Assembly (NCBI GenBank): GCA_947462815.1
Contig: CANHQR010000037.1
Location: 1 to 35,934, forward strand
Direction of reading: 5' to 3'
Length of the DNA stretch: 35,934 nt
DNA from: Pseudobdellovibrionaceae bacterium
GTDB taxonomy: Bacteria; Bdellovibrionota; Bdellovibrionia; Bdellovibrionales; JAMPXM01
Made by a program: the position numbers and the translations under genes
Notes under the pieces: model-generated
What the model was told of the DNA's origin: nothing
Database searches by the model: none
Seen by the model: the letters and a program-made list of their open reading frames with translations, nothing else
Part shown: one piece after another, positions 2,276 to 35,498 of the stretch
Layout of the letters: every line of letters starts with the position of its first letter
Numbering within the stretch: the stretch's first letter is position 1

Positions 2276-3246
2276 GGTGATCCCGGCAAGGCTCCGAGAG
2301 GCAAACTTGAGGTCTCAAGGTACCACATCACGTAGTAGAAAATAGGAGCGACGAAAATCAAGCGGTCCATCACCGAGAGCAAGTCACCTCGGCCGATGAT
2401 GAAGACACCCACATCTTTGATGCCGAGATCGCGGCGAATCACGGATAAGACAAGATCGCCGAGGCTACCGCCCAGAATGGCCACCAGACCTGAGGCGATC
2501 CAAAACGTTTCGGAGCGCTCTGGTAAAAGATGTCGGAAGCTGAATGCGATAACGAGAGTGAGAAGTGCCGCGACGCCGAAGCCTTCCCAGCTTCGTCGTG
2601 GCGTGATGCGCGAGAACATCTTGGTTGGCACATACTTTGTGCGCGATGTGATGAACTGCGAGACGGCCATGGAGATGTTGTCGAAGGTCTCCGTCAGGAT
2701 CGTGATGTAGATCACCATATAGGCGCCTCGCTCAAGCCGCCAGATCCATCCTAAGTGCATGAAGCTCCAGCCCAAAAACAGAAAGCACATCAGCGTGAGA
2801 GCAAGGTACTGGATCATCTGTTTGTGGGAGTTACGCAAAATGGGAATTAGACAAACAACTCCGAAAAAAGCCATGGGCGCAAGGTTGTAAAGTTCGCGGA
2901 TGCCGTAATGAATCGAGGCGGCCAGTGCGAAGATCCCCAGGTAAGTTGCCCAGACGAAGTTGGATCGGTGATACATCCCCATGAGCTGGAAGAAGATTTT
3001 CGAGCCAAAGATCGCGATGATCGACAGCACGATGAGAGACCAGGGACGCGGTAGTGAATTCGCAACAAAGAGAAATGGCGTCGCAATACACCAGCTGATG
3101 AGTGAAGCAAAACCCGCTTGTGTGAATGGGCCCTGGTGACGGATGAAAAAGAAGAAGACGCTGAGAAGGATCAGCACGCCCATGACGATACCGAAGGTCT
3201 GCAAATAGACCGGCTCGTTGAGAAGTGAGGAATCGAAGAGGTTCAT
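2272..3246 (-). CDS. cdsA: Phosphatidate cytidylyltransferase (CDP-diacylglycerol synthase)
   Basis: A 324-residue polytopic membrane protein with about eight hydrophobic segments. The C-terminal part has the CdsA pattern: TPRRSWEG, then GDLVLSVIRRDLGIKDVG, then a GRGDLLSVMDR segment in place of the usual HGGxxDRxD. These are the binding regions for CTP, phosphatidate and metal. The last motif is looser than in E. coli CdsA and looks like a divergent subgroup. The enzyme makes CDP-diacylglycerol, the branch point for phosphatidylethanolamine, phosphatidylglycerol and cardiolipin. It shares 1 bp (TGATG) with the upstream regulator gene and 4 bp with the acyltransferase gene downstream, so all three are probably co-translated. 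Confidence 0.88.
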   Translation of the reverse strand: MNLFDSSLLNEPVYLQTFGIVMGVLILLSVFFFFIRHQGPFTQAGFASLISWCIATPFLFVANSLPRPWSLIVLSIIAIFGSKIFFQLMGMYHRSNFVWATYLGIFALAASIHYGIRELYNLAPMAFFGVVCLIPILRNSHKQMIQYLALTLMCFLFLGWSFMHLGWIWRLERGAYMVIYITILTETFDNISMAVSQFITSRTKYVPTKMFSRITPRRSWEGFGVAALLTLVIAFSFRHLLPERSETFWIASGLVAILGGSLGDLVLSVIRRDLGIKDVGVFIIGRGDLLSVMDRLIFVAPIFYYVMWYLETSSLPLGALPGSP

Positions 3247-4640
3247 CAGGGTGCTCCGATGGAATAATCTTTCATCTTCTTGTAGATGCTTGAGCGTGAA
3301 ATTCCAAGTAGTTCGGCGGCCTTGTCGACATCCTGAGTTTGTGTCAGCGCATGCCGGATGGCTTGGGCTTCGACTCGTTCGAGCAGGGACGTGAGGCCTC
3401 GACTGAGGTCGAGTGAGACGTGTTCGCCATCTTTTGCGGGCGACCTCAGATTCAGTTGTGGAAGAACGAGGTGGACATCTTCGGAGCGAATCAGCGGCAG
3501 GGGGGAAACGAGGGCAAGTTGCTCACAAATTCGTCGCAGTTCACGAGTCTGGCCGGGCCAAGTGTGCTTTTTCAAAGCCTCGATGGCGTCGGGGGCCAAA
3601 GTCTTGTTGAAGCGCGGGCGCTCGAGGCTCAAAAAATGTTCGGCCAAGGCGGGCAAATCCTCGATGCGATCTTTAAGCGCTGGTAAGCGGAGGCGGTGGC
3701 CCGAGAGGCGAAAATAGAGATCTTCGCGAAACTCGCCCTGGCGGACCATCTCTTCAAGAGAGCGATTCGTCGCGGCAATAACTCGCGTTTTGATCTTCTG
3801 CGTTTGTGAGCTGCCCACGCGACGAACCTCGCCGCTTTCGAGAAAGCGCAAAAGTTTGGCTTGTTGAGTTTCGGGGAGAGCTTCGACCTCGTCGAGAAAG
3901 AGATCGCCGCCTTGCGCGCACTCGGCAAGCCCCATCTTATCGCGATCAGCTCCGGTGAAAGCGCCCTTTACGTGTCCAAAAAACTCCGACTCGAACACAC
4001 TCTCGGGCAAGGCCCCGAGGTTCACTGCAACCCAAGGTCGAGTGGGATCATGGCGGCGCTCCTGAGTGTGCAGAAGTTGCGCGACAACTTCTTTGCCCGC
4101 ACCTGAAGGGCCTTCGATAAGAACAGGGGCGTTCTCGCCTCGCAAAGACGCGACGTCGCGAAGAAGTCGCTCGCTGGCTGGGCCTGAGCCGATCCATCGG
4201 AGTTCACTCAAGTGCTGGCCCGTACGAACTTGCGGACGAAGCTCCAGCAAAGCTTCGATTTTTTCCAAGGTGATCTGTAGCTCATCGCGACCGATGGGTT
4301 TGGCGAGAAATCGTGTGGCTCCCGCTTTGAGGCCCTGCTCCATGAATTCACGGCGCAGATCCCCGCTCATGGCGATCAGCTCCATTTGAGGTCGTTGCTC
4401 TCGGAGTCGGCGCAGGACATCCAGACCTTCGGCCTGGGGGCTCGGGCTGAGATGCAGATCGACGAGCGCCGCAGAGCAAGCGTCGGTGTCGATGGGAGTT
4501 AAGCCATCGACGGCGATGAGGCTCCAGTTGTTCGGCAGAATCCGGCGAAGGCTCGCGATGATCAGATCATCATCATCAACCACGAGGAGCTTGAGCTTTT
4601 GCTCCTCATCGGAGGAGAGCGAAGGAGAGCCACGTTGCAT
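3246..4640 (-). CDS. Sigma54-dependent response regulator (NtrC family: REC-AAA+-Fis)
   Basis: Three domains are visible in 464 residues. The receiver domain (about 16-130) has the acidic pocket D22/D23, phospho-acceptor D61, S92 and K114. The AAA+ domain (about 145-380) has Walker A GPSGAGKE (177-184), the sigma54-contact loop GAFTGA (226-231) and Walker B ending D250-E251. A Fis-type helix-turn-helix occupies the last 35 residues (AAELLGISRSSIYKKMKDY). It should activate transcription from -24/-12 promoters when phosphorylated. Its kinase is not obvious nearby. The gene is first in a coupled set with cdsA and plsC, which hints at, but does not prove, a link to envelope lipid synthesis. It diverges from serA. 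Confidence 0.95.
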   Translation of the reverse strand: MQRGSPSLSSDEEQKLKLLVVDDDDLIIASLRRILPNNWSLIAVDGLTPIDTDACSAALVDLHLSPSPQAEGLDVLRRLREQRPQMELIAMSGDLRREFMEQGLKAGATRFLAKPIGRDELQITLEKIEALLELRPQVRTGQHLSELRWIGSGPASERLLRDVASLRGENAPVLIEGPSGAGKEVVAQLLHTQERRHDPTRPWVAVNLGALPESVFESEFFGHVKGAFTGADRDKMGLAECAQGGDLFLDEVEALPETQQAKLLRFLESGEVRRVGSSQTQKIKTRVIAATNRSLEEMVRQGEFREDLYFRLSGHRLRLPALKDRIEDLPALAEHFLSLERPRFNKTLAPDAIEALKKHTWPGQTRELRRICEQLALVSPLPLIRSEDVHLVLPQLNLRSPAKDGEHVSLDLSRGLTSLLERVEAQAIRHALTQTQDVDKAAELLGISRSSIYKKMKDYSIGAP

Positions 4641-4731: not shown

Positions 4732-5973
4732 ATGAGTTCTGCGACAAGCACGGTCAAAAGTTCCGGTCGAAAGATTTTGCTACTTGAGAATATCCACCCT
4801 GTGGCTCACGAGGCTTTGCGAAAAGAAGGTCACGAGGTGACCGCGATCTCGCACTCTCCGGATCGAGAGGAACTCAGCCGTTTGTTGCAGACTCACGAGG
4901 TCGTAGGGTTGCGATCGAAAACTCGTCTTCCCGCTGAACTTTTGCAAAAAGCTCCGCAGCTCTCGCTGATCGGCTGTTTTTGTATCGGTACAGATCAAGT
5001 GGATTTGGCGACGGCGAATTCGCTGGGTATTCCCGTATTCAACGCCCCGTATTCCAACACGCGAAGCGTCGCCGAGATGGTGCTCGCCGAAGTGATCATG
5101 TTGGCGCGACAGCTGGGTGATCGCAATATGGCGGCTCACAAAGGGCAGTGGCTGAAGAGTGCTGAAGGTTCTCGCGAAGTGCGGGGAAAAACCTTGGGCA
5201 TCGTCGGCTATGGACACATCGGCAGTCAGGTGAGCGTGTTGGCCGAGGCCTTTGGCTTACGCGTGATCTACTACGATGTGGTGAAGAAGCTGCCGCTAGG
5301 GAACTCGCAGAGCGTGGAGACGCTTGCTGAACTTTTACGTCGATCCGATTTTGTGAGCCTGCATGTTCCCGATACGCGAGCAACACGCGGCATGCTGGGC
5401 GCGGCTGAAATCAAGTTGATGCGTCCAGGGGCTGCGCTGATCAATGCGAGTCGTGGAACTGTGGTAGATATTCCGGCCTTGGCGGAGGCGATTCGCAGCG
5501 GGCATTTGTCGGGTGCTGCGGTCGATGTTTTTCCGGAAGAGCCGGCCTCGAACTCACAAGCCTTCAAGAGCGAGCTGCAAGGTCTACCCAATGTCATTCT
5601 CACGCCCCACATCGGCGGCAGTACGCTCGAAGCACAGGAGTCGATTGGCTTAGAAGTCGCGGCGAGTTTCATTTCTTATCTGCGTGACGGTTCATCGCTC
5701 GGAGCTGTGAATTTCCCGCCGCTTTCGCTTCCTCAACAGCATGCGGGGGCGATTCGGATCGCCAACGTACATCGCAACGTGCCGGGCGTGTTGGGAAGCA
5801 TCAACTCGATCGTTTCGGATTTGGGAGCGAACATTTTAGGTCAGGCCTTGGCCACGGATGAGCGAATTGGATTTGTGGTGATGGACGTCGAAGTCCAAGA
5901 GGCTCATGAGCTGCTTCGGCGCGTGGAAGATCTTCCGACATCGATTCGCACGAGCTTGCTGGGTCAAGTCTAG
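4732..5973 (+). CDS. serA: D-3-phosphoglycerate dehydrogenase
   Basis: SerA catalyses the first step of serine synthesis, NAD-dependent oxidation of 3-phosphoglycerate. The 413-residue length matches the short E. coli-type enzyme. The Rossmann motif GYGHIG is at 159-164, with an acidic residue ending the next strand (VIYYD). The catalytic triad is R251 (NASRGTVVD), E280 (FPEEP) and H303 (TPHIGGS). Residues 342-413 form an ACT domain (NVPGVLGSINSI), the usual site of serine feedback inhibition. The start has no strong Shine-Dalgarno, so it is tentative. E. coli SerA also reduces 2-oxoglutarate to D-2-hydroxyglutarate, which is relevant to the FAD dehydrogenase encoded at 7548. Confidence 0.95.
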   Translation: MSSATSTVKSSGRKILLLENIHPVAHEALRKEGHEVTAISHSPDREELSRLLQTHEVVGLRSKTRLPAELLQKAPQLSLIGCFCIGTDQVDLATANSLGIPVFNAPYSNTRSVAEMVLAEVIMLARQLGDRNMAAHKGQWLKSAEGSREVRGKTLGIVGYGHIGSQVSVLAEAFGLRVIYYDVVKKLPLGNSQSVETLAELLRRSDFVSLHVPDTRATRGMLGAAEIKLMRPGAALINASRGTVVDIPALAEAIRSGHLSGAAVDVFPEEPASNSQAFKSELQGLPNVILTPHIGGSTLEAQESIGLEVAASFISYLRDGSSLGAVNFPPLSLPQQHAGAIRIANVHRNVPGVLGSINSIVSDLGANILGQALATDERIGFVVMDVEVQEAHELLRRVEDLPTSIRTSLLGQV

Positions 5974-6048: not shown

Positions 6049-6447
6049 TCAGGGCGAGGTTTTGCGGAACTGTTCGTGCAGCTCGATGACAACTTTTCGA
6101 CGATGGTTGAGCAGATCTCCGAGACGATGAATGGCCTCTCGAGCCTTGTTGAGCTTGCGAAGTTGCTCGGGATTGAATTGCCCAGTTCGCGAACCTGACT
6201 CGAGAAGGGCCTCGATCATTCCCGCCGAAATCGCAAGGGGATTTGCCAAGTCGTGAAGAAAGCTGCGCTCCGCAGAGATGTAGTCAAGGCTTTGATGGCT
6301 TGCGAGTGGGGGACGATCTCCGGTGGGCCGACTCGCGATCGAAGACTTCTGCTTCGGCTTTCGCTGGTCACGCGCCGCCACGGATGAGGTGGTGCGGGTT
6401 TTGGATTTCGAAGAGCGACGGCGAACTGTTTGAGCCTTTTTTTTCAT
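6049..6447 (-). CDS. Stand-alone histidine-box (DHp-like) protein with basic N-terminus
   Basis: The 132-residue protein has a Lys/Arg/Ser-rich N-terminus (1-45) and one helical domain (about 50-125). That domain carries FLHDLANPLAISAGMIEALL, which strongly resembles the H-box of histidine kinases and of DHp-type phosphotransferases such as ChpT; H65 is the likely phospho-accepting residue. A second helix (LRKLNKAREAIHRLGDLLNH) would complete the hairpin. No ATPase (HATPase_c) domain follows, so it cannot autophosphorylate alone. It could be a phosphotransfer protein or a kinase remnant. Start taken at 6447, preceded by AGGAAGAAAGGG; an upstream in-frame ATG at 6489 would add 14 residues. It diverges from a response regulator at 6943, a possible partner. 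Confidence 0.7.
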   Translation of the reverse strand: MKKKAQTVRRRSSKSKTRTTSSVAARDQRKPKQKSSIASRPTGDRPPLASHQSLDYISAERSFLHDLANPLAISAGMIEALLESGSRTGQFNPEQLRKLNKAREAIHRLGDLLNHRRKVVIELHEQFRKTSP

Positions 6448-6942
6448 AACACCCTTTCTTCCTGAGCACGATTTTTTGAGTGTGCTCATTCGCGAACTTC
6501 AAACTGAGGTCCACGGAGGCCGGCGACATCACCGCATCGCTCACTTCGATGTCTCGCCCTTGTATGTTCGCAGGGGATTCGTCACAAGTTGAATGAACTT
6601 TCTGTTGAGCTGGCCCATGCCCGGAACTGATGGCCAGAGCTGATGCCCAGAACTGATGGCCAGAACCTATGGATAGAACCTTTAGAGCTTCTTGTCTCAA
6701 CTTGAGGCGGGTCCAGGAATCGACTCAGAAAATGTGGCCACTGGAACGCCAACGAGAATTCAACAGTCTTCTCAGATTAGGACACGAGGAATGAGACATG
6801 ACGTCTCAGCCCCATCAAATGACACCCATCTGAATTAAGATTCGGCGAAGGCGAGAAAGTGACTCAACGTCAGCTCGAATTCCGCCGACTTGAGTAGGTA
6901 TCAACGCATTTGCCTGTTGGGTCCCGAACGAAAGGCTTGTCC
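6448..6942. other. Intergenic region between DHp-like protein and response regulator
   Basis: About 495 bp without a convincing gene. It holds a 13-bp imperfect tandem repeat (6620-6684) and a small inverted repeat, TGAGAC-ATGAC-GTCTCA, at 6792-6808. Both flanking genes read outward, so their promoters must lie here, but I see no clear -35/-10 or -24/-12 pair. The first 42 bp could be coding if the upstream start of the DHp-like gene is used. Confidence 0.6.
6620..6684. repeat. 13-bp imperfect tandem repeat, five copies
   Basis: Consecutive 13-bp units read CCCGGAACTGATG, GCCAGAGCTGATG, CCCAGAACTGATG, GCCAGAACCTATG and GATAGAACCTTTA, decaying to the right. The period is not a multiple of three and no gene covers it, so it is a non-coding minisatellite or a set of iterated sites in the divergent intergenic region. 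Confidence 0.75.
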
Positions 6943-7536
6943 ATGTCGAAGGTTTTTGGCGCCGGTTCGAAATTCAGTTTTCCCAAAAACCCGCGCCTTC
7001 TCATTGTCGAAGATGAGGCAGACATTCGTTTCATTTTGGGTGAGCAGTTGCTGGAACTGCAGGCCACGCATGCAGAGCTTGAGATTTCCTTTGCCGAGAA
7101 CGGACGTGAAGCCTTGAAGCTCGTCGAGGGACAATGGTTTGATGCCGTGGTGAGCGATCTGAACATGCCGGCGATGTCGGGCCTAGAATTTCTCTTCGAG
7201 TTGCGACAGCGAGAGCTGCAGACTCCGGTGATTTTTTTAACGGGTTTTGGCGACAAGGCGAAGGCGATCGAGGCCTTGCGGCTCGGGGCCTTCGATTTTC
7301 TCGATAAACCCTGGAACCATCAACATTTGCTCTCCGTGACCTCGGAGGCTCTGTTCATGGGTCTGAAGCTTCGCGATCTACATGCTGAGCTGGCAATCTT
7401 TCGCGAGAACTTGCAGGGACAGCCTGAGGCCCAGGCTCAGCAGCAATTTGATCGACGTCGGGCTCTCGCTTTGACGAAGCTGACGCGTCTGTTCTTGGCG
7501 GAAGCGAATGCGCGTCATCGCGCTAAAGCCTCCTGA
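6943..7536 (+). CDS. Single-domain-type response regulator with C-terminal helix
   Basis: The 197-residue protein is a receiver domain (about 16-135) with a helical tail of about 60 residues. The acidic pair E23/D24, phospho-acceptor D72 (SDLNMP), T100 and K112 (LDKPW) are all present. The tail (HAELAIFRENLQ onward) is charged and coiled-coil-like and shows no DNA-binding or enzymatic motif, so output is probably by protein contact. The FDFLDKPW signature is common in NtrC/HnoC-like receivers. ATG at 6943 is preferred over the TTG 33 nt upstream, because AAAGG precedes it. It diverges from the DHp-like gene, which may feed it phosphate; that pairing is inference. Confidence 0.88.
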   Translation: MSKVFGAGSKFSFPKNPRLLIVEDEADIRFILGEQLLELQATHAELEISFAENGREALKLVEGQWFDAVVSDLNMPAMSGLEFLFELRQRELQTPVIFLTGFGDKAKAIEALRLGAFDFLDKPWNHQHLLSVTSEALFMGLKLRDLHAELAIFRENLQGQPEAQAQQQFDRRRALALTKLTRLFLAEANARHRAKAS

Positions 7537-7547
7537 CCGCGCGGCGA

Positions 7548-9002
7548 TCAGTCGAAGACCTTGCCGGGGTTCATAATTCCATCGGGATCGAAAACTTTTT
7601 TGATTTGCTTCATCAGCTGAAGCTCAGCCGCGGAGCGCGTGAAGGCGAGGTCCGGTTTTTTCACGAGGCCGACACCATGTTCGGCGCTCACGGAGCCTCC
7701 GAGCTCCTGAATGATCGAAAAGATCACCGGATTTACGCCACGGCATCGCGCGAGAAACTCATCTCGGCCGAGATCCTTGGGTTTCAAAATATTGATGTGC
7801 ATATTGCCATCGCCGATGTGTCCGAACCACACGACTTCAAAGTCGGGGTAGTGCTGTTTGAGGGCGGCATCCGTGCGCGTGAGGAACTCTGGAACTTGGG
7901 AAATGCGAACGGAGACATCATTTTTAAAGGGCGTGTGAGGGGCTGTGGCCTCAGAAATATCTTCGCGTAGTCGCCAGAAGTCTCGAGCTTGGGATTCGCT
8001 TTGAGCCATCGCTCCATCCAGAATCCAGCTTTCGCCCACGCCATGTTCAAAGCACTCGAGTGACATAGCCTCCACATCCGTATTCGACTTCTCGATTTCC
8101 ACGAGCACGTAGTGAGGCGAATTTGTCGCAAAAGGCTTTTGCAGATGAGCGTGATTCACGACATGGCTGAGAGCGAGGTCAGAGAAATACTCAAAAGCGG
8201 TCAGTGGCAGTCGATCGCGGAAATACTGATAGATCTTCATGATACTCGAGAGGTCAGGCACCGCAAATAGCATCACGATCGTTCCTTGCGGTGGCGAGGT
8301 GAGGCGAATTTTGGCCTCGGTGATGAAACCCAGAATACCTTCGCTGCCGATGAAGAGGTGACGGAAGTCGAGACCCGTCGCGTTCTTAACGAGACCGGAG
8401 TTGAGTTGGAGGACCTCTCCCATGCCCGTCACCACCGTGAGGCCAGTGACCCACTCTCGCGTATTTCCGTAGCGAATGACCTTCACGCCGCCGGCATTGG
8501 TCGCGATATTGCCGCCGATCTGACTGGAGCCGCGAGCGGCAAAGTCGACGGGATAGAGATAGCCCTTATCGCGTGCAAACTGCTGGAGCTGCTCCGTCAC
8601 GACACCAGCTTGGACGTCCACGCAGCGATCGACAGCGTCGAAGTTTAGAATTTGATTCATTTTTTCGAAGCTCACGACGATCTCGCCCTGAAGCGCACAG
8701 GCGCCGCCGGAGAGTCCGGTGCGGCCACCACTCGGCACAAGTCCGATCTGATGCTTTCGAGCCCACTTCACAACAGCGACGACCTCGTCGGTGGAGAGCG
8801 GAAAGGCGACGGCGCTGGGATGAATTTCATAATGTTTCGTCCAATCCCGACCATAATGGTTCAAGGACGCAGGATCCGAGAGCACGCGGTCCACACTCAG
8901 AAGCGATTGCAGTTCCGCGAGGTGTTGGGGCGAAACTTGATAGCTGGCGGAAGTTGAGGCTTGGGCCGCGGTCGACGATGAGGGCTGTGAGGGCGTGTTC
9001 AT
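7548..9002 (-). CDS. FAD-binding D-2-hydroxyacid dehydrogenase (GlcD / D-2-hydroxyglutarate dehydrogenase type)
   Basis: The 484-residue protein has the PCMH-type FAD domain (about 50-230), with VPSGGRTGLSGG and SSQIGGNIATNAGG contacting the cofactor. The FAD-oxidase C-terminal domain follows, with WFGHIGDGNMHIN and AEHGVG as its conserved His-containing motifs and the family-typical end DPDGIMNPGKV. Family members oxidise glycolate, D-lactate or D-2-hydroxyglutarate. The GNIATNAGGVKVIRYG form and the single-subunit layout favour the D-2-hydroxyglutarate/D-lactate branch. serA, a source of D-2-hydroxyglutarate, lies 1.6 kb away, which fits a recycling role. No GlcE or GlcF partner is present. 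Substrate remains inferred. Confidence 0.88.
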   Translation of the reverse strand: MNTPSQPSSSTAAQASTSASYQVSPQHLAELQSLLSVDRVLSDPASLNHYGRDWTKHYEIHPSAVAFPLSTDEVVAVVKWARKHQIGLVPSGGRTGLSGGACALQGEIVVSFEKMNQILNFDAVDRCVDVQAGVVTEQLQQFARDKGYLYPVDFAARGSSQIGGNIATNAGGVKVIRYGNTREWVTGLTVVTGMGEVLQLNSGLVKNATGLDFRHLFIGSEGILGFITEAKIRLTSPPQGTIVMLFAVPDLSSIMKIYQYFRDRLPLTAFEYFSDLALSHVVNHAHLQKPFATNSPHYVLVEIEKSNTDVEAMSLECFEHGVGESWILDGAMAQSESQARDFWRLREDISEATAPHTPFKNDVSVRISQVPEFLTRTDAALKQHYPDFEVVWFGHIGDGNMHINILKPKDLGRDEFLARCRGVNPVIFSIIQELGGSVSAEHGVGLVKKPDLAFTRSAAELQLMKQIKKVFDPDGIMNPGKVFD

Positions 9003-9068: not shown

Positions 9069-9494
9069 CTAGCGCTGAGGGCCTAGGCCCTTGCCCAGAG
9101 CGGCGCGTAGGCGCTCGAGTTGCTGAAAGTCGGCCTCTTCGCGCAGGTCGAAGCGAAGAGTCTCGGACGCTGTTCGCAACTGATGGACCTTGCGTAAAAG
9201 CCTCACCGCCAAAGGCAGAGCTTGCGCCAAAGTCTCGATATTGGCCTCGCAAAGAGCTTCTGCAACTTCACCGACTTGGGAGATTTCGGGAAGACCGTAG
9301 GTTTTGCCTGTGCCTTTGAGCTTATGGAACTCAGTTTCAATCTCTTGAATTTGTTTTTGTGCCCAAAGCTTTTCAATGTTGTCGGCTTTGCCGGGGAGTC
9401 CTTGAATGTACTGTTTTTGGAGATCCGCGAGGACTTGCGCGATGCCGTGCGGGTCGGAGCTTGAGCCTTTTCCGGATCCGGAGTTGGAGCTCAT
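9069..9494 (-). CDS. Histidine phosphotransfer (Hpt) domain protein
   Basis: The 141-residue protein consists of a Ser/Gly-rich N-terminus and one helical-bundle Hpt domain. The motif EFHKLKGTGKTYGLPEIS is the classic HxLKGxG/S phosphotransfer site, with H57 as phosphohistidine. A charged helical tail follows. The ATG at 9494 overlaps the kinase stop codon by 4 bp (ATGA), so I use it rather than the longer frame starting at 9524. It is the last gene of a four-gene two-component operon and would shuttle phosphate between the kinase or one receiver and another receiver. Confidence 0.9.
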   Translation of the reverse strand: MSSNSGSGKGSSSDPHGIAQVLADLQKQYIQGLPGKADNIEKLWAQKQIQEIETEFHKLKGTGKTYGLPEISQVGEVAEALCEANIETLAQALPLAVRLLRKVHQLRTASETLRFDLREEADFQQLERLRAALGKGLGPQR

Positions 9495-10825
9495 GCCGCC
9501 AGCCGATCTGCATTTTCGCGCCAATGCGGCAAAGTGAACCAGAAAGTCGAACCGACGCCCACTTCAGAATCGACGCCGATGCTGCCGCCGTGTTCCTCGA
9601 CGAGGGCCTTGGCGATGGCCAGTCCCAGGCCTGTGCCTTTGACGAGCGGATTTTCTTTTGTGGTGCCTTGGCGGAACTTTTCGAAAATCAATTCTCGGTC
9701 TCGTGGAGGAATGCCGGGGCCCTGGTCAATGACGCTCACGATCAGTTCACCGCTTCGGGCTCGCGAAACGCTAATGCGAACCGTGCCACCTTTGGGGGAA
9801 AACTTAATCGCGTTGGATACGAGATTGGTGAGCGCCTGCTGCAAGCGGTCCGAATCGATGTTCACTTCCAGTTGCGGCAATGACATCTGTTCGAGTCGCA
9901 CGTCGGCATTGACGGCCAGACCGGCAAGACCTTCAAGCGTGCGACGACAGAACTGATCCCAACTTGTCCACTGACAAGCCAAGGGAAGATTTCCAGATTC
10001 GATCTTGGCTAAATCGAGAAGATCGTTGATGAGGCGGATGAGACGATCTGTTTCGCCCTCCGCGATCTTGATCAGGCGCAGTGAGTTGGTGTCGAGTTGC
10101 CCAACGACGCCAGAGGCGAGGAGAGACAGAGATCCTTTAATCGATGTCATCGGCGTGCGGAGTTCATGGCTAGCGATGGAGAGGAATTCGCTCTTCGCGC
10201 TATCGAGGCGCTTGAGGTCGTCCATGGTGTTAATGACCTTTTGGGCGAGCGAGTTGAAGGTTCGCTGCAAGTCGCCGAGTTCGTTCGCCTCTGGGTTTGA
10301 GAATTGGTAGGAGTAGCGATCGACCAAGAAGTCCAACATGCGACGCGAAAGGTGACGTAGTTGTCGGAAGATCAGCGTGTTGACCGCTAAGAGCGACCAC
10401 ACCAGTCCAGCCGCGAGGATACCCCAAGCGAGTCCAGCGAATTTGACCACACGGTCTTCAATGACGGCGCGCTGGCGGCGAAGCTCTTCGTGATACTTGC
10501 TCTCGGCGCGCAGGGCGCTGCGAATCGCTCGCTTGAGCTTGTCGGGTTTACGTGCCGCATAGGCATCGAGTGCGTCTTTAAAGGCAATACGTCGCTCGTC
10601 ATTATCGATCCGCTGCAGTTCGAGATTCAGCCGACGAAGTGTTTCGTCATAGTAGGGAAGTTCTTCCATCATGAGAAGAATCGTCCGCGTTTCCATCGAG
10701 CTCGTCATTTTCGCTTCGACGGCGAGCACTTGTTGCCGAGCATCCCAGGCGCGCCAAGCCGCGAGAGCGGAGGCACCCAAGATCAGAATCGTCAGCAATG
10801 CGAGCATGCCGCGAATGGACTTCAT
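9491..10825 (-). CDS. Membrane-bound sensor histidine kinase
   Basis: The 444-residue kinase has TM1 (about 6-24), a periplasmic helical sensor region (about 25-128), TM2 (about 129-152) and a HAMP-like linker (153-206). HisKA follows with SIASHELRTPMTSIKG (phospho-acceptor H220), then an HATPase domain with N-box NLVSNAIKFSPKG, G1 DQGPGIPP, F-box FEKFRQG and G2 GTGLGLAIA. All catalytic boxes look intact. The sensor region resembles a four-helix-bundle type, with no recognisable ligand motif. Its ATG overlaps the upstream response-regulator stop by 4 bp, and its stop overlaps the Hpt start by 4 bp, indicating tight co-translation. Confidence 0.95.
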   Translation of the reverse strand: MKSIRGMLALLTILILGASALAAWRAWDARQQVLAVEAKMTSSMETRTILLMMEELPYYDETLRRLNLELQRIDNDERRIAFKDALDAYAARKPDKLKRAIRSALRAESKYHEELRRQRAVIEDRVVKFAGLAWGILAAGLVWSLLAVNTLIFRQLRHLSRRMLDFLVDRYSYQFSNPEANELGDLQRTFNSLAQKVINTMDDLKRLDSAKSEFLSIASHELRTPMTSIKGSLSLLASGVVGQLDTNSLRLIKIAEGETDRLIRLINDLLDLAKIESGNLPLACQWTSWDQFCRRTLEGLAGLAVNADVRLEQMSLPQLEVNIDSDRLQQALTNLVSNAIKFSPKGGTVRISVSRARSGELIVSVIDQGPGIPPRDRELIFEKFRQGTTKENPLVKGTGLGLAIAKALVEEHGGSIGVDSEVGVGSTFWFTLPHWRENADRLAA

Positions 10826-11196
10826 CGTTTGAACCCCGTTCGAACCAGGATCTCATCGATGTGAGCGCAAATCTGCGTGGGCTCAAATGGCTTGGCAATG
10901 TACCCCACGCCGAGTTCCAAGAACTCACGAATGTCGCGTTCATCGCTCTTGGCACTGAGAAAAATGATCGGTGTCGTGACTAAACCCGCGCCACGAATCT
11001 CTTGCGCGGCCTGCAGTCCAGACTTTTTGGGCATCATGCCGTCGAGAATGATCAAGTCGAACGCCTGGCGCGTCGCCAGATCGACGGCGGCCTCGCCATC
11101 TTCGACGACCGTAACTTGATGGCCGCCGATCTTCTCCAGTGAAATGCTGGTGATGAGCGAAACGGCCTGATCGTCTTCCGCGAGGAGGATCTGCAT
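10822..11196 (-). CDS. Single-domain response regulator (CheY-like)
   Basis: The 124-residue protein is a receiver domain and nothing else. It has acidic residues E7/D8/D9, phospho-acceptor D52 (LDGMMPKKSG), a Ser switch residue in FLSAKSD and Lys in AKPFEP. Such proteins act as phosphate intermediates or by binding a target directly. The ATG at 11196 begins 2 nt after the stop of the upstream REC-PilZ-like gene, and the stop overlaps the kinase start by 4 bp (ATGA). A longer frame upstream of 11196 would run into the previous gene and is not used. Confidence 0.93.
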   Translation of the reverse strand: MQILLAEDDQAVSLITSISLEKIGGHQVTVVEDGEAAVDLATRQAFDLIILDGMMPKKSGLQAAQEIRGAGLVTTPIIFLSAKSDERDIREFLELGVGYIAKPFEPTQICAHIDEILVRTGFKR

Positions 11197-11198
11197 GT

Positions 11199-11930
11199 TC
11201 AGGCCGCCTTTCGGCCCGATGAAGGGGCCAGGTTGGCGGTTTTCGCGGCGATGAAAGCGCGCAAGCGTTGCAGCTGACGCACTTCCAGAGCTTGGTACAC
11301 AAAGCGAACTTCCCAGCCGCCGTCTTTCTCTTGTGAATCGATAACTTCGATAGGTAAATGCAGGAAGCCGATTTGTTCGAGAACGGGGGACTTGAGTTGC
11401 AGCTTGAGTCCCTTGCGGGGGCGAACGTCGGCTTCTAGAATCCCACCGTTGTCGGTCAGAGCTTTGAGTCGAAAGTAGCATTCGCCTTGTGCGGGCTCGT
11501 CCAGCTGCACCATCGCAAAGCGTGCGGCACGCTTGGATTGTTGGCGCTTTTCGAGGAGCTCGTCGACTTTCTCGATGAAGGAGGCCGGATCCAAGGGCTT
11601 CACCAGATAGGCTTGCACGCCGAGCTGTACGGCGCGCTCCACATCGCGCTTCTCACGACGACCGGTGAGCATCGCGATCGGTGTGGTGGCCGCTGTCGGT
11701 AGTTGACGTAAGAGGCGTACCAACTCAAAGCCCGAGTGCGGTTTCATGTTCGCGTCGGTGATGATCAAGTCGAACTCTTGATCGCGCGCGCGATCCAAAG
11801 CCGTGATGGGATTGTCGACGGTGGTCACATCGACGTGGGTGCCCATCAGCGCCGGCCGAGGCGAGAGCAAAAGCGCCTTCGCGAAAATTAGAATGTCTTG
11901 ATCGTCATCGACCAAAAGCACACGAAGCAT
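11199..11930 (-). CDS. Response regulator with C-terminal PilZ-like domain
   Basis: Residues 1-130 of 243 form a receiver domain with D8-D10, phospho-acceptor D59 (ITDANMKPHSG), a Thr in MLTGR and Lys in LVKPLDP. Residues about 140-225 are beta-rich: DNGGILEADVRPRKGLKLQL, then LPIEVIDSQ and WEVRFVYQAL. The order and strand spacing look like a PilZ domain, but the c-di-GMP motifs RxxxR and DxSxxG are degenerate, so nucleotide binding is doubtful. It is first in the four-gene phosphorelay operon. ATG at 11930 was chosen because homologous receivers start at the MLRVLLVDDD strand; an earlier in-frame start at 12014 would add a Pro/Ser-rich leader. Confidence 0.82.
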   Translation of the reverse strand: MLRVLLVDDDQDILIFAKALLLSPRPALMGTHVDVTTVDNPITALDRARDQEFDLIITDANMKPHSGFELVRLLRQLPTAATTPIAMLTGRREKRDVERAVQLGVQAYLVKPLDPASFIEKVDELLEKRQQSKRAARFAMVQLDEPAQGECYFRLKALTDNGGILEADVRPRKGLKLQLKSPVLEQIGFLHLPIEVIDSQEKDGGWEVRFVYQALEVRQLQRLRAFIAAKTANLAPSSGRKAA

Positions 11931-15262: not shown

Positions 15263-15858
15263 GAGCATCATCCTAACGACGCACGGGTCGCGTCGCCAAG
15301 TGGCGACTTAGAGGACGGAGAGGAAATGGGACTGATCCGATCGCATGATGAAGTCTTGCCCGCATTGTGGACCCAGGTTCCAGCGAGGGGTCTTCGAAGT
15401 CTCGTGGGAAGGGGATTTCTGTTTTTTTACTCAAATTTTTGCTCAAAATTTGAACTTCATGATGGCCATCTCAAGCGTCGGCACCTTCCTCAACGCGTTG
15501 CGCATGAGTGGTGATCGAGCGGGCAGTTCGGGGTTTCGTGCCCGGCAAAAGCTCGAAAAGTCGGCGATTTCCGATAAGTGCGGGAAGGCTTTTTTGGATT
15601 GAGGCTTGCGTCGGGGCGAGGCCTAGATTCAAGATGGCGCTCAGAACGTCGCGTCCGGGGACCCTCGTCGGTCGTCGCGTTCCGTGGTCGTGTTCCGCTT
15701 CGATGCCCTCGGTGGCATGAAGGTGAGGGCCGGCCTGCGGCTGGCCCGGTGACTTGCTCAGTCAGCGAGAGACGGGGTTCGTCGGCCTCAGATCGAGGGG
15801 CGAAATTGAATTCAGAAACCTGGGAATTGAGAAATCGGGATCAGGAAAAGGGGAGCTG
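15263..15858. other. Long leader/intergenic region upstream of Topo VI
   Basis: About 600 bp with no convincing gene. It holds two clear inverted repeats: an AT-rich 9-bp stem at 15431-15453 (TCAAATTTT / AAAATTTGA, loop TGCTC) and a GC-rich stem at 15727-15747 (GGGCCGGCC / GGCTGGCCC, loop TGC). Small open frames here have no family-like pattern. The region must contain the promoters for the FKBP gene (minus) and the topoisomerase genes (plus). An unrecognised regulatory RNA is possible. Confidence 0.5.
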
Positions 15859-17757
15859 ATGGCGAAGACAGCAAAGAGCATCACCTCAAGTAGCACAGCT
15901 GAGTATTTTGCAAAAAACTTGCAGCAGGTGGGGTTTTCTTCGCCGCTGAAGGCCGTGCTCACCACGCTCAAAGAGGCCGTTGATAACTCTCTGGACGCCT
16001 GCGAAGAGCACGGCATCTTGCCCGAGCTGAAAGTGGTGGTTCGCAAAATCGGTGCAGGCGCTTCCAAAACTTCAGACTTGGTGGAGATCATTGTCGAGGA
16101 CAATGGTCCCGGTCTCGATGCCGAGGACTTGCCGAAAGTTTTTGGCGAGTATCTGGCGAGTTCGAAATTTGGTCGCGGGCAGTGTACGCGCGGTCAGCAA
16201 GGTATCGGGATCTCGGCGGCGACCACCTGGGCGCAGCTCACGAACGCCTCGGGCGTGCGAGTGACTTCCAAAACGAAGACGATGCGCAAAGCCGTGCAAG
16301 CGGTGATCGATGTCGACATTAAGCAGAACAAAGGCTTGATGAAGGCCAAGGAGACGATCGATTGGGATCGTCCGCATGGTACACGTGTCGAATTTCGCAT
16401 TGATGGCCGCGTACAGTTGAACGGCGACGGGGGCTTGCTCACGTATTTGGAAGGCACGACCCTCGTGAACCCTCATCTCACGATTGAATACACTTTGTTG
16501 GAAGCGGAGCCTGTGCGCATCGAGCGCGTGAGCGATACAGTTCCCGAAATTCCTTCGGCGACCTTGCCGCATCCGCACACCATGAAGCTGGGTGAGTTCA
16601 TCACGCATGCGGGTCTGTACGGAAAAGTCGAGTTCGGAAAGTTTTTGCGCAGCGGATTTTCGCGCGTGACGGACGAAACTTTGAAAGCCTTGGTGAAAAA
16701 CGGCATGCCCAAGGCCTTGCTGCCGCTGCCAACGAACAAGCTGACCGAAGAGCAGTTTAAGACGGCCTTCCAGGTGATCTCCAAGACCGAAATGCAGTCG
16801 CCCTCGACCCGCTCGGTGTTGACGGTCGGCGAAGAGTCTCTGGCGAAATCGATTTTACGCCTCGGCGATGTGGACTTTTTCTCGGTGGTGACGCGAAAGC
16901 CGCGGATCTGCGACTTCAAGCCCGTTGTGGTGGAGGTCGCACTCGCTCGCTTCTTAAATCGCGGCAGTGAAGACGAGTCGATCCAACTCCTGCGTTTTGC
17001 CAACCGTGTGCCGCTGCAGTTCGATAAGTCGGCTTGCGCGATCACGGCCGCAGTTGAAAGCGTGAATTGGCGCTCTTACGGCTTGGCGCAGTCGAAGGAC
17101 TCTTTGCCTTCGGGCCCCTATGTTTTTGCCATCTCGATCGTGTCGCCTTTCATCAAGTTCAAAAACGCGTCGAAGGAAACCATCGATGCTTCAGACGAAT
17201 TGGTCGAGGAGATTCGCCGCGCCTTGATGCAAGCTGGACAAAAACTGTCGCGGCATATTCGTCGCGAAAACAAAGAGGCCGACCTGGAGCGCAAGATCTC
17301 GCATATCGAGCAGTTTGGACCAATTTTGGTCGAAGGCTTGGTGCGAATCGTCGGTGCCAAAGAGTCGCGAAAGCTCAAGGCTGAAGAAGGTTTGAAAAAG
17401 CTTTTGGGTCGCGACACCAAAGAAGCTCAGAAGGACCTCTCGGAAGCTGAGCTTCGTTTGAATGCCTTGAAAGAAAAGCAAGCGAAGGCGGGACTTTTGT
17501 TTTCCGCTCGTCGCCATGAAGAAGTGTCGACGGAAGAGGTGGGTGACGCAGACGCCGATGTGGACTCGGCGGGGTTGGATGACGATGCGGCGGAGCTGAG
17601 CATGGCGCGTGGAACCGACAAGCGTGCAACCGGCAAGCTGGTGGAAGTGAAGCCGGGAACGGCGAAGGATGCCGGTGCGAAAGGCACAGGCAAAGTGGCG
17701 AGCCCTGAAAAGCGCGGCACCGAAAAACGTACGACCGACAAGACGGCACGCAAGTAA
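15859..17757 (+). CDS. top6B: DNA topoisomerase VI subunit B
   Basis: Topo VI B is the ATPase and gate-controlling half of the type IIB topoisomerase, an A2B2 enzyme. The 632-residue protein has the GHKL fold: E39 and N43 in LKEAVDNSLDA, DNGPG (81-85), GQQGIGIS (112-119), and the start SSSTAEYFAKNLQQVGFSSP typical of Top6B. An H2TH segment and the transducer domain follow, with the switch loop PFIKFKNASKETID near 431-443. The core ends near residue 540. An acidic patch (554-579) and a Lys/Ala/Thr-rich basic tail (about 585-632) are extra compared with the roughly 530-residue Sulfolobus subunit. GGGGAG precedes ATG 15859. The A subunit starts 12 nt after its stop. Confidence 0.95.
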   Translation: MAKTAKSITSSSTAEYFAKNLQQVGFSSPLKAVLTTLKEAVDNSLDACEEHGILPELKVVVRKIGAGASKTSDLVEIIVEDNGPGLDAEDLPKVFGEYLASSKFGRGQCTRGQQGIGISAATTWAQLTNASGVRVTSKTKTMRKAVQAVIDVDIKQNKGLMKAKETIDWDRPHGTRVEFRIDGRVQLNGDGGLLTYLEGTTLVNPHLTIEYTLLEAEPVRIERVSDTVPEIPSATLPHPHTMKLGEFITHAGLYGKVEFGKFLRSGFSRVTDETLKALVKNGMPKALLPLPTNKLTEEQFKTAFQVISKTEMQSPSTRSVLTVGEESLAKSILRLGDVDFFSVVTRKPRICDFKPVVVEVALARFLNRGSEDESIQLLRFANRVPLQFDKSACAITAAVESVNWRSYGLAQSKDSLPSGPYVFAISIVSPFIKFKNASKETIDASDELVEEIRRALMQAGQKLSRHIRRENKEADLERKISHIEQFGPILVEGLVRIVGAKESRKLKAEEGLKKLLGRDTKEAQKDLSEAELRLNALKEKQAKAGLLFSARRHEEVSTEEVGDADADVDSAGLDDDAAELSMARGTDKRATGKLVEVKPGTAKDAGAKGTGKVASPEKRGTEKRTTDKTARK

Positions 17758-17769
17758 AAGGGATTGAAC

Positions 17770-18933
17770 ATGGAAAAAGTGATTCGCATTCGCAAATTGA
17801 CCAAAGACATTCCCAAAGAAGTTCGCGTGCTTTGCGACGCTATGCTGGAAGAGCTGGAGAGGGGAAATCGCCCGGTTTTGGAGGCGATCAAATGTTCGCT
17901 CGACAACTCTTTCTACAATCCGAAGGTGGGTTTCCTCACCCCCGGCGATAAGCGTGTGCGGACCGAATTGAATGTGTCGAGCGTTCAAAAGATGGCGCGC
18001 GTGGTGTTCATGCTCGAGATTCTCCTTGCGAACCTGAGTTCCGGCGCGGTGAACACCAAGCGTGAATTGTACTATATCTCCAAAGGTAAAGTGAAAAAGG
18101 ATCCCAAACTGAAGGCTTTGGACTTTGGAGATCAGGATGAGTCCGACGCCATCATCGACTTCGTCGGCGATATGCTCGAGGTCTATCGAGAGGAGCTCAA
18201 CTGCTTTGCTAACGATCGAGGTGGCCAGACCTACTCGCGGCAGCTGGTGGTCACGGAAACTCTCCCGGATGGCACGAAGGCCGTGGTCGATCTGTCCACG
18301 CTGGGTACCACACCCTTTCAGCCTAAGAACAAACCGCAGGCCCTCGCGCTGAAGGCGAAAAAGAAGATCGATTTCTGCTTGGTCGTCGAGTCCGAAGGTA
18401 CGGCCGGCACCTTGGTTGCTAACGGGATGACGAAGCGACACAACTGCATCGTCATGGGCGCACAGGGTGTCCCGTCCAACGGCGTGCGCGGCTGGTGTAA
18501 GCTCATTCAAGAGCAACTCAAAGTGCCGATGTTCTTTTTCGGCGACTTGGATGCCTACACGTTGCAAAACATTTACCGAACACTGAAGGCGGGATCGGCG
18601 GCCTCGCTGATTCGAAATGCCGACTTCTCGGCGCCCGAAGTGCACTTCTTGGGAGTGCTTCCGGAAGATGTGAAGAAGTGGGATTTAGATTGCTATAAGG
18701 TGAACGAACGCGATCCAGCCGAGGCTCGATCTTTGAAAAAGGCCAAAGATACGCTATCGAACGACCCCTTTTTCCAAGATAAGAAAAATCGCAAACTCGC
18801 AGAGGTTCTGGAGTGGTTGATTAAGAATAAGCTTCGCTGCGAACAGCAGTCGTTCTTCGCGGTGGACCCGCGCGATCCGTTGAAAACCGAGAAGATCATT
18901 CTCGAAAAGATTCAGAAAGGCTCTTACATCTGA
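17770..18933 (+). CDS. top6A: DNA topoisomerase VI subunit A (Spo11-like)
   Basis: This subunit makes the double-strand break, forming a 5'-phosphotyrosyl bond. The 387-residue protein has the winged-helix catalytic motif TKRELYYISKG with tandem Y101/Y102. Its Toprim domain has metal-binding E207 (VVESEG) and D259/D261 (FGDLDAYTL). The usual archaeal/Spo11 Toprim form is DxDPxG, so the Pro and Gly are replaced here. The C-terminal part (FLGVLPEDVKKWDL) also follows the family. ATG 17770 has AAGGG 7 nt upstream; a TTG 6 nt earlier is less likely. It forms a two-gene operon with top6B. Topo VI is standard in archaea and plants and scattered in bacteria. Confidence 0.94.
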   Translation: MEKVIRIRKLTKDIPKEVRVLCDAMLEELERGNRPVLEAIKCSLDNSFYNPKVGFLTPGDKRVRTELNVSSVQKMARVVFMLEILLANLSSGAVNTKRELYYISKGKVKKDPKLKALDFGDQDESDAIIDFVGDMLEVYREELNCFANDRGGQTYSRQLVVTETLPDGTKAVVDLSTLGTTPFQPKNKPQALALKAKKKIDFCLVVESEGTAGTLVANGMTKRHNCIVMGAQGVPSNGVRGWCKLIQEQLKVPMFFFGDLDAYTLQNIYRTLKAGSAASLIRNADFSAPEVHFLGVLPEDVKKWDLDCYKVNERDPAEARSLKKAKDTLSNDPFFQDKKNRKLAEVLEWLIKNKLRCEQQSFFAVDPRDPLKTEKIILEKIQKGSYI

Positions 18934-32782: not shown

Positions 32783-33649
32783 TTAGATTCCAGTCATTTC
32801 GGATTGCTGCCAGTCAAACAGCAAACTCACGTCGGCCACCGGGGCCGAGTGCGTCAGTGCGCCCACAGAGATAAAATTGACGCCGATCTCGGCCACGCGG
32901 CCCACACGTTCCAAATTCATGTTGCCACTCGCTTCCGTGGCGAAGGGCTTGGGGGCTGACTTTGCTAGGCGAACCGCCTCCGCCAAGGTGGCGTCATCCA
33001 TGTTGTCGAGAAGCGCGCGCTCGACGCCGAGAGCGATGGCTTCGCGCACATCATCGAGCGTGGCGCACTCGACCTCGATCGGCTCGGACGTATTGGCGCG
33101 GATGCGTTCGACAGCTTTGCGAAGCCCACCACTGACCATGATGTGATTATCTTTGATGAGAACAGCATCGCTCAGATTGTAGCGATGGTTCTGGCCGCCA
33201 CCGTGGGCGACCGCGCGCTTTTCCAAGTCCCGATAGGCGGGCAAAGTTTTGCGTGTGTCGAGAATTTTCGTCGACGTGTGGCTCACGCGATCCACAAAGC
33301 TTCGCGTGAGAGTCGCGATTCCCGAGAGATGCCCAACGAAGTTAAGCGCAACGCGCTCGGCTTTTAAGATTTGCATCAGGTTACCACTGACGTGGCAGAT
33401 GATTTGCCGATTCAAAATGCGATCGCCCTCACGAAAATGCCACTGAACTTGAATCGATGGATCGAGCGCCGCCATCGTTTGTTCGAAAGGTGCCGTTCCT
33501 GAGAGCACCAAATCTTGTTTAGCGACAAGCCGGGCTTGTCCAAATCGAGGCGCAAGTCCCAAGCTATCCGTCGTGAGATCGCCGTTGGGCATATCTTCGC
33601 GGAGTGCGGCGCGAATCAGGTCGGCTAAGGTCATTTCACCCATGCTCAT
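32783..33649 (-). CDS. nadC: Nicotinate-nucleotide pyrophosphorylase (quinolinate phosphoribosyltransferase)
   Basis: NadC converts quinolinate and PRPP to nicotinate mononucleotide in de novo NAD synthesis. The 288-residue protein has EDMPNGDLTTDSLG at the N-terminus, FVGHLSGIAT, TRKTLPAYRDLEKRAVAHGGGQNHR (substrate and PRPP site), DAVLIKDNH, EVECATLDDV and SVGALTHSAP at the end. All are standard for the family. Its ATG overlaps the stop of the REC protein gene upstream (ATGA). nadA and nadB are not in the window. Confidence 0.96.
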   Translation of the reverse strand: MSMGEMTLADLIRAALREDMPNGDLTTDSLGLAPRFGQARLVAKQDLVLSGTAPFEQTMAALDPSIQVQWHFREGDRILNRQIICHVSGNLMQILKAERVALNFVGHLSGIATLTRSFVDRVSHTSTKILDTRKTLPAYRDLEKRAVAHGGGQNHRYNLSDAVLIKDNHIMVSGGLRKAVERIRANTSEPIEVECATLDDVREAIALGVERALLDNMDDATLAEAVRLAKSAPKPFATEASGNMNLERVGRVAEIGVNFISVGALTHSAPVADVSLLFDWQQSEMTGI

Positions 33650-35445: not shown

Positions 35446-35498
35446 AAGCCAAGTCAAACCTGCCCCCACAGCGAAGTCAAATGTAGGCTCAGGAAGGC

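Follow-up and report, generated by a model that had tools for sequence, protein, structure and literature searches.

The window, which is the whole stretch of 35,934 nucleotides that was analysed, carries on its reverse strand at 6049-6447 a gene for a protein of 132 aa that resembles the DHp domain of histidine kinases. Its start was placed at 6447. An upstream ATG at 6489 would lengthen the product to 146 aa, but an SD-like purine-rich stretch (GGAAGAAAGG) was seen by eye upstream of the 6447 ATG only. In the ORF translation, H65 (codon 6253-6255, by position) sits in FLHDLANPLAIS and heads the H-box HDLANP. The basic N-terminal tail that had been predicted is present; it spans about 45 residues modelled at low confidence, and among the 28 aligned members of the family the window protein alone possesses it.

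A search against Pfam gave a HisKA (PF00512) match at residues 65-114 that starts at H65 (E 4.7e-5), sub-threshold at 23.8 bits versus the curated cut-off of 26.9. In the same database no HATPase or HATPase_c match was found for the protein, the whole chain of which is just 132 aa long. The predicted model, calculated for a single chain, is an antiparallel two-helix hairpin with long helices at 49-88 and 93-130, and the chain stops at residue 132, directly past the hairpin. Its mean pLDDT is 82.4, with values of at least 90 in 77 of the 132 residues and high confidence after residue 50. When a profile of 28 relatives was aligned by hhalign with seven genuine kinase DHp domains, a probability of 95.7% (E 9e-9) was obtained with the histidine placed onto the histidine. 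The DHp identity, which is weak on the single-sequence match, is strengthened by this profile-profile match together with the hairpin model and the conservation of the histidine described below. Judged by profile comparison and model, the 6049-6447 protein is a stand-alone DHp-like protein without an ATPase domain, which confirms the original prediction on the H-box and on the missing ATPase domain alike.

General searches were less specific. Among the 28 relatives 19 gave a HisKA match in Pfam at E 0.1 or better, and NCBIfam produced weak and scattered matches, the single one of the window protein scoring 14.8 bits versus a cut-off of 350. The best match of a profile search of solved structures was a ribosomal protein (E 0.069), with SrrB at E 0.18. 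In a fold search the best 50 matches were helical hairpins (best Z 10.6), which may reflect merely a common helical-bundle arrangement. Foldseek placed kinase DHp chains (6lgq, 7n0e and 4mtx) among many unrelated hairpins, all at E 0.5 or worse; as it gave no match to solved structures at E 0.001 or better, the fold match is non-specific.

A shared intergenic region of 495 bases (6448-6942), in which a scan for the sigma-70 consensus found no site, separates the DHp gene from a divergent gene on the forward strand (6943-7536) for a REC protein of 197 aa. The latter matches Response_reg in Pfam (E 2.3e-28) and has the usual active-site residues of a complete receiver (D24, E25, D72, T100 and K122). 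Its C-terminal tail consists of two predicted helices (126-156 and 162-196), so that the predicted REC protein with a helical tail was indeed found across the intergenic region. That this tail is a hidden DHp domain was ruled out, profile similarity being absent.

The pair is flanked on the left by what we take to be a SerA-like dehydrogenase (4732-5973, forward strand) and on the right by what is presumably a GlcD-like FAD-linked oxidase (7548-9002, reverse strand). Both flanks are conserved, as is, within the same block, an NtrC-type sigma-54 response regulator (3246-4640, reverse strand). Beyond the oxidase gene four reverse-strand genes at 9069-11930 form a putative relay. These encode an Hpt protein (9069-9524; Pfam Hpt match at 9174-9419), a histidine kinase of the HisKA-HATPase_c type with a weak HAMP match (9491-10825), a single-domain REC protein (10822-11196; start by position, the listed ORF extending upstream to 11481) and a REC protein (11199-11930; the listed ORF extends upstream to 12014) with a weak PilZ match (E 0.0085, below the cut-off). 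In the source draft genome (3.43 Mb, 96% complete) 23 HisKA, 27 HATPase_c and 33 REC matches were found, and the Hpt match at 9174-9419 was the only one of its kind found. The single Hpt protein found in this genome and its single short HisKA-like protein are thus separated by no more than about 3 kb.

Two further genes of the window were noted. The protein encoded at 15754-17757 is a Topoisomerase VI B subunit (Topo-VIb_trans and HATPase_c matches) and the next ORF on the same strand is 17764-18933; Topoisomerase VI is uncommon in bacteria. At 33646-35469 a 607-aa protein is encoded whose sole Pfam match at E 1e-4 is a REC domain at its N-terminus.

The pair and the adjoining relay in the window's family

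The window's family (f1) comprises 13 genomes, and a single-sequence search detected DHp relatives in seven of these, the window's genome included. All seven loci adjoin a SerA-like gene. At six of them a close REC orthologue lies divergently beside the DHp gene, with a second REC copy in two. Close REC orthologues (eight matches at 228-266 bits, the next match scoring 138 bits) occur in exactly those six of the 13 genomes. At the seventh locus (G001) the DHp gene is present and the paired REC gene is missing at that place; no close orthologue was found elsewhere in that draft genome. Conversely, both genes of the pair are absent from G008 and G009, where SerA and GlcD adjoin and the block is retained. 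Of the six f1 genomes without a DHp match (G002, G004, G008, G009, G010 and G011) the pair site was inspected in G008, G009 and G011, and in G011 no DHp gene was seen on the contig read, which held the SerA side only. Conservation of the pair, proposed originally as a check, was therefore observed at six of seven DHp loci, with two genomes devoid of both genes. From these few independent cases, the f1 DHp and REC genes seem in most instances to have been acquired or lost together.

The pair had also been proposed to be connected to the relay at 9069-11930. In G001, G003, G005, G006 and G007 the gene order REC-PilZ-like, REC, histidine kinase, Hpt, GlcD, (REC, DHp), SerA, NtrC-type regulator is kept, the copy in G001 being without the paired REC, and the relay block adjoins the place of the pair in these five genomes as well as in G008 and G009. 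The two occur without each other, however. The block of histidine kinase, Hpt and REC is present in G008 and G009, from which both pair genes are absent (the G009 contig ends ahead of the REC-PilZ gene). In G012 the pair is present, and a run of REC, CheR and CheW-domain genes, followed by CheD- and CheB-like genes recognized by eye, occupies the place where the relay would be. This indicates that the relay is not required for the pair. Gene order thus leaves the proposed link weak, with the vicinity of the relay to the pair site in seven genomes, and the finding of no other Hpt match in the window's genome, as what speaks for it.

Relatives in other Bdellovibrionota and their neighbouring genes

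With the profile of 28 members at E 1e-6, 153 of 368 Bdellovibrionota genomes gave a match, some of the matches being full-length kinases. The named groups among the relatives are Bdellovibrionales, Oligoflexales and other Bdellovibrionota metagenome bins. A scan of genome contigs with the single sequence confirmed no homologue from 89 stretches. An alignment-based scan of contigs yielded 11 loci from 34 stretches, all in Bdellovibrionota or its subgroups, a result that is no proof of absence elsewhere as a single motif was used. From four candidate stretches in viral contigs no homologue was confirmed.

Neighbouring genes were compared at 86 loci. These are a chosen set and not all matches: 80 are wider regions hand-picked for their spread over families, and the rest are the window and L042, L044, L048, L049 and L050. 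L043, L045, L046, L047, L051 and L052 were excluded because they lie on the same contigs as included loci. Gene calls were mechanical, and a neighbour of L162 that looks REC-like by eye is left unscored. A REC gene is adjacent or fused to 28 of the 86 relatives, whereas about 8% would be expected from the share of REC genes among those further off in the same loci (16 of 398, or 4%). The nominal binomial P of 4e-11 takes no account of kinship. In the tree of the DHp proteins, which is carried by only 77 columns, the REC-adjacency label requires 13 changes, and at least five of these changes are forced by well-supported branches. By group, REC is adjacent at 8/8 loci in f26, 6/7 in f1, 4/17 in f9, 2/3 in Oligoflexales, 1/2 in f23, 2/22 in f12 and 0/17 in f3/g11. 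Of ten groups with a single locus, it is adjacent in f3/g12, f11, f20, f22 and f29 and not in f4, f14, f21, f24 and f27. Since 58 of the 86 relatives have no adjacent REC, the pairing characterizes certain lineages and not the family as a whole.

At six loci DHp, a kinase and one or more REC proteins are encoded in a same-strand run; that these runs are operon-like was judged from strand and spacing alone. The order is histidine kinase, 457-aa REC protein, DHp and REC at L149; histidine kinase, REC, DHp and a 461-aa REC protein at L152; histidine kinase, DHp and two REC proteins at L154; DHp, REC-PilZ and histidine kinase at L145; REC-HK, REC-PilZ, REC-HD and DHp at L067; and hybrid histidine kinase, REC-PilZ and DHp at L064. 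The PilZ domain is shown in the last three. At L142 the run consists of REC, DHp and REC-HD, an intact kinase not being shown. The HD domains of L067 and L142 are HD_5 matches and are taken, from sequence, as HD-GYP-like. At L127, on the same contig as L052, a CheR-REC-CheB protein adjoins the DHp gene. L153 encodes a REC-DHp fusion in one frame of 208 aa (REC at 11-120, DHp at 137-205, E 9.3e-14). Within L153:4190-5712 this fusion lies beside a REC-CheX protein, a vicinity in which a phosphatase and a DHp protein may act on the same receivers.

Other neighbourhoods recur in lineages where REC is mostly not adjacent. In f9, 14 of 17 loci (L053-L063, L065, L068 and L087) hold genes matching those of L055, for which Pfam gives a hotdog thioesterase, an AMP-binding enzyme, an O-succinylbenzoate synthase-like protein, two UbiA prenyltransferases and a polyprenyl synthetase. 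The polyprenyl synthetase was detected by phmmer in 13 of the 14, whereas at L060, where the contig is short, only the thioesterase was detected. From these domains the cluster is read as menaquinone-type; REC stands beside DHp at three of the 14 loci. At several f9 loci the DHp and thioesterase genes overlap by a few bases. A quinone cluster is an unexpected place for a signalling hairpin. At L054 (7859-8440) DHp and a thioesterase without its first residues share one frame, which may reflect a true fusion, a deletion or misassembly.

In f12, where the loci span about 10 kb, 16 of 22 (within L128-L158) encode a small exported protein together with a family-5 solute-binding protein, and 12 of those 16 encode an AMP-binding enzyme as well. 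The DHp relatives there mostly have an HDxSN-type motif, no proline and no adjacent REC. The f3/g11 relatives (L070-L086) form a divergent group with mostly HDVGxxLN, an E-rich segment ahead of helix 2 and no adjacent REC; in one of them (L085) Q replaces the histidine. In the lineages without REC the DHp proteins may do other work, or their REC partners may be encoded elsewhere.

Residues around the histidine and possible modes of action

Conservation of H65, on which the original prediction depended, was found. The histidine is the most conserved position of the alignment (85 H and 1 Q in 86 short relatives), a count that is somewhat circular because the profiles used to detect the relatives include that residue; the histidine is present in all 28 REC-adjacent relatives. 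The position after it is acidic in 73 of 86. In 7 of the 28 REC-adjacent members A, S or R replaces this acid while the histidine is retained, and the acid is also lost in 6 of the 58 relatives without adjacent REC. N, S or T occupies H+4 in 27/28 REC-adjacent versus 43/58 other relatives, and proline H+5 in 25/28 versus 19/58 (0/17 in f3/g11). Also conserved are two adjacent arginines (RR) close to where helix 2 ends (R in 70 and 71 of 84 relatives). Together, these data suggest that the histidine undergoes phosphoryl chemistry and that, in the REC-paired lineages, REC proteins are its partners.

As the best reading of sequences and model, which we hold with a confidence just above even, the 132-aa protein would be a minimal phosphotransfer protein and the divergent REC protein its most likely direct partner. 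Two DHp copies would probably pair into a four-helix bundle, as Spo0B and ChpT do. H65 would then take the phosphoryl group from the aspartate of a phosphorylated REC domain and hand it to another REC domain or return it; in the likeliest partner, the REC protein at 6943-7536, D72 would be the phosphorylated residue. By analogy, the best reading is that the protein works like Spo0B, ChpT or PhyT but without any ATPase remnant. Of the phosphotransfer pair that had been predicted, the partnership stood, being conserved at six of the seven f1 loci, and the transfer is less secure, since a phosphatase of the REC protein fits nearly as well.

According to the main rival explanation, which we think rather unlikely, the protein is a dedicated phosphatase of its paired REC, with H65, D66 and N69 speeding the loss of phosphate and no onward transfer. 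The HDxxN of the window protein fits either activity by its sequence, and the preference for N, S or T at H+4 in REC-adjacent members agrees with a phosphatase, as does the L153 fusion adjoining REC-CheX, CheX being a chemotaxis phosphatase family. Against this, the histidine is kept more strictly than the acid next to it. Roles in phosphatase action and in ATP-dependent autophosphorylation are generally ascribed to that acid, so that its loss from seven REC-adjacent members with the histidine retained favours plain transfer, although the window protein itself keeps the acid. HDxxN does match the HE/DxxN/T phosphatase motif as given in the accessible text of PMC3591291. The history of PhyT, a degenerate kinase that went under the name of a phosphatase before its transfer of phosphate was shown (PMC5898713, in the part available), may by analogy serve both as a warning and as a model for the DHp family.

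A split kinase appears improbable; in such an arrangement H65 would receive phosphate from ATP through an ATPase domain on a different protein, and the DHp protein would go on to phosphorylate REC. A split EnvZ is functional in vitro, and proteins with HisKA but no HATPase have been proposed as possible split kinases (both in the accessible text of PMC3591291), and D66 is present in the window protein. However, the shortest open frame among the 27 HATPase_c matches of the 96% complete draft genome measures 241 aa and also has HisKA, and consequently no small dedicated ATPase partner was found there. Moreover, the Pfam-checked kinases of the related runs have their own HisKA and HATPase domains, and the acid after the histidine is missing in some members. 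More doubtful still is a modulator whose hairpin forms mixed bundles with the DHp of a true kinase and alters its activity, like RetS with GacS: the protein does have the fold of a DHp hairpin, and a RetS-GacS DHp complex is among the Foldseek matches (E 2.0, not significant), but neither the near-invariant histidine nor the repeated REC pairing and the REC fusion would be predicted by it.

Comparison with known phosphotransfer proteins

Spo0B of Bacillus subtilis is the dimeric phosphotransferase of the sporulation relay and receives phosphate from the single REC protein Spo0F. Like the window protein it has HDxxN around its histidine; unlike the window protein, Spo0B carries at its C-terminus a domain akin to the ATPase fold. 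Membership of the Spo0B type was ruled out, no SPOB_a match being found for the window protein and a weak one (E 0.026) for 1 of the 28 relatives. The Spo0B bundle is built from the helical hairpins of two subunits (PMC3433190, accessible part).

The same source, in its accessible part, describes ChpT of Caulobacter crescentus as having a hairpin N-terminal domain without autophosphorylation, in which Pro38, five residues past His33, kinks the helix (PMC3433190). This spacing is that of H65 and P70 in the window protein. ChpT keeps an atypical Bergerat-fold domain, however, whereas such a domain is absent C-terminally from the 132-aa chain; with no ChpT-type family among the Pfam matches either, membership of that type was ruled out. 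The original likening to ChpT is therefore fair for a possible mode of action but not for family (PMC3433190, same part). Hpt proteins such as LuxU and that encoded at 9069-9524 are likewise small phosphotransfer proteins beside REC proteins, but they are usually four-helix bundles of one chain (PMC3433190, accessible part), in contrast to the predicted two-helix hairpin. The Hpt class (PF01627) was ruled out too, as no match was found for the DHp protein in Pfam.

PhyT/PhyP of Sphingomonas melonis, encoded at the phyR locus, has a DHp domain that moves phosphate from the single-domain REC protein SdrG to PhyR; unlike the window protein it is membrane-anchored and has a putative sensor domain, a degenerate ATPase domain and an HRxxN motif (PMC5898713, in the part available). 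The nearest described class is that of HisKA proteins without HATPase, which numbered 1556 of 42417 in a SMART tally of 2013; in the accessible text this is a domain count without families, partners or gene context (PMC3591291). The window protein shares with that class a HisKA-like domain (by profile comparison, below the Pfam cut-off), the lack of HATPase and an HDxxN of the HE/DxxN/T type.

Both this class and kinase-derived dimeric phosphotransferases are already known, and the DHp family is thus a variant within a known class. In the accessible text of the literature searched, no report was found of this family, of its total loss of an ATPase remnant or of phylum-wide REC pairing. More tentatively, with a confidence that falls somewhat short of even, the bare DHp hairpins of about 70-100 aa throughout Bdellovibrionota could be kinase-derived phosphotransferases cut down to the hairpin, which would act as plug-in shuttles for REC-PilZ and REC-HD (c-di-GMP type), chemotaxis and menaquinone-type outputs. 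The family would provide a testable intermediate for the REC proteins of predatory bacteria and their relatives and, if this reading is true, a small, easily made protein for studies of REC recognition. The dimeric phosphotransferases known to us (Spo0B, ChpT and PhyT) all keep a broken ATPase-type domain; a family that persists throughout a phylum without such a remnant would reveal the minimal requirements of a relay.
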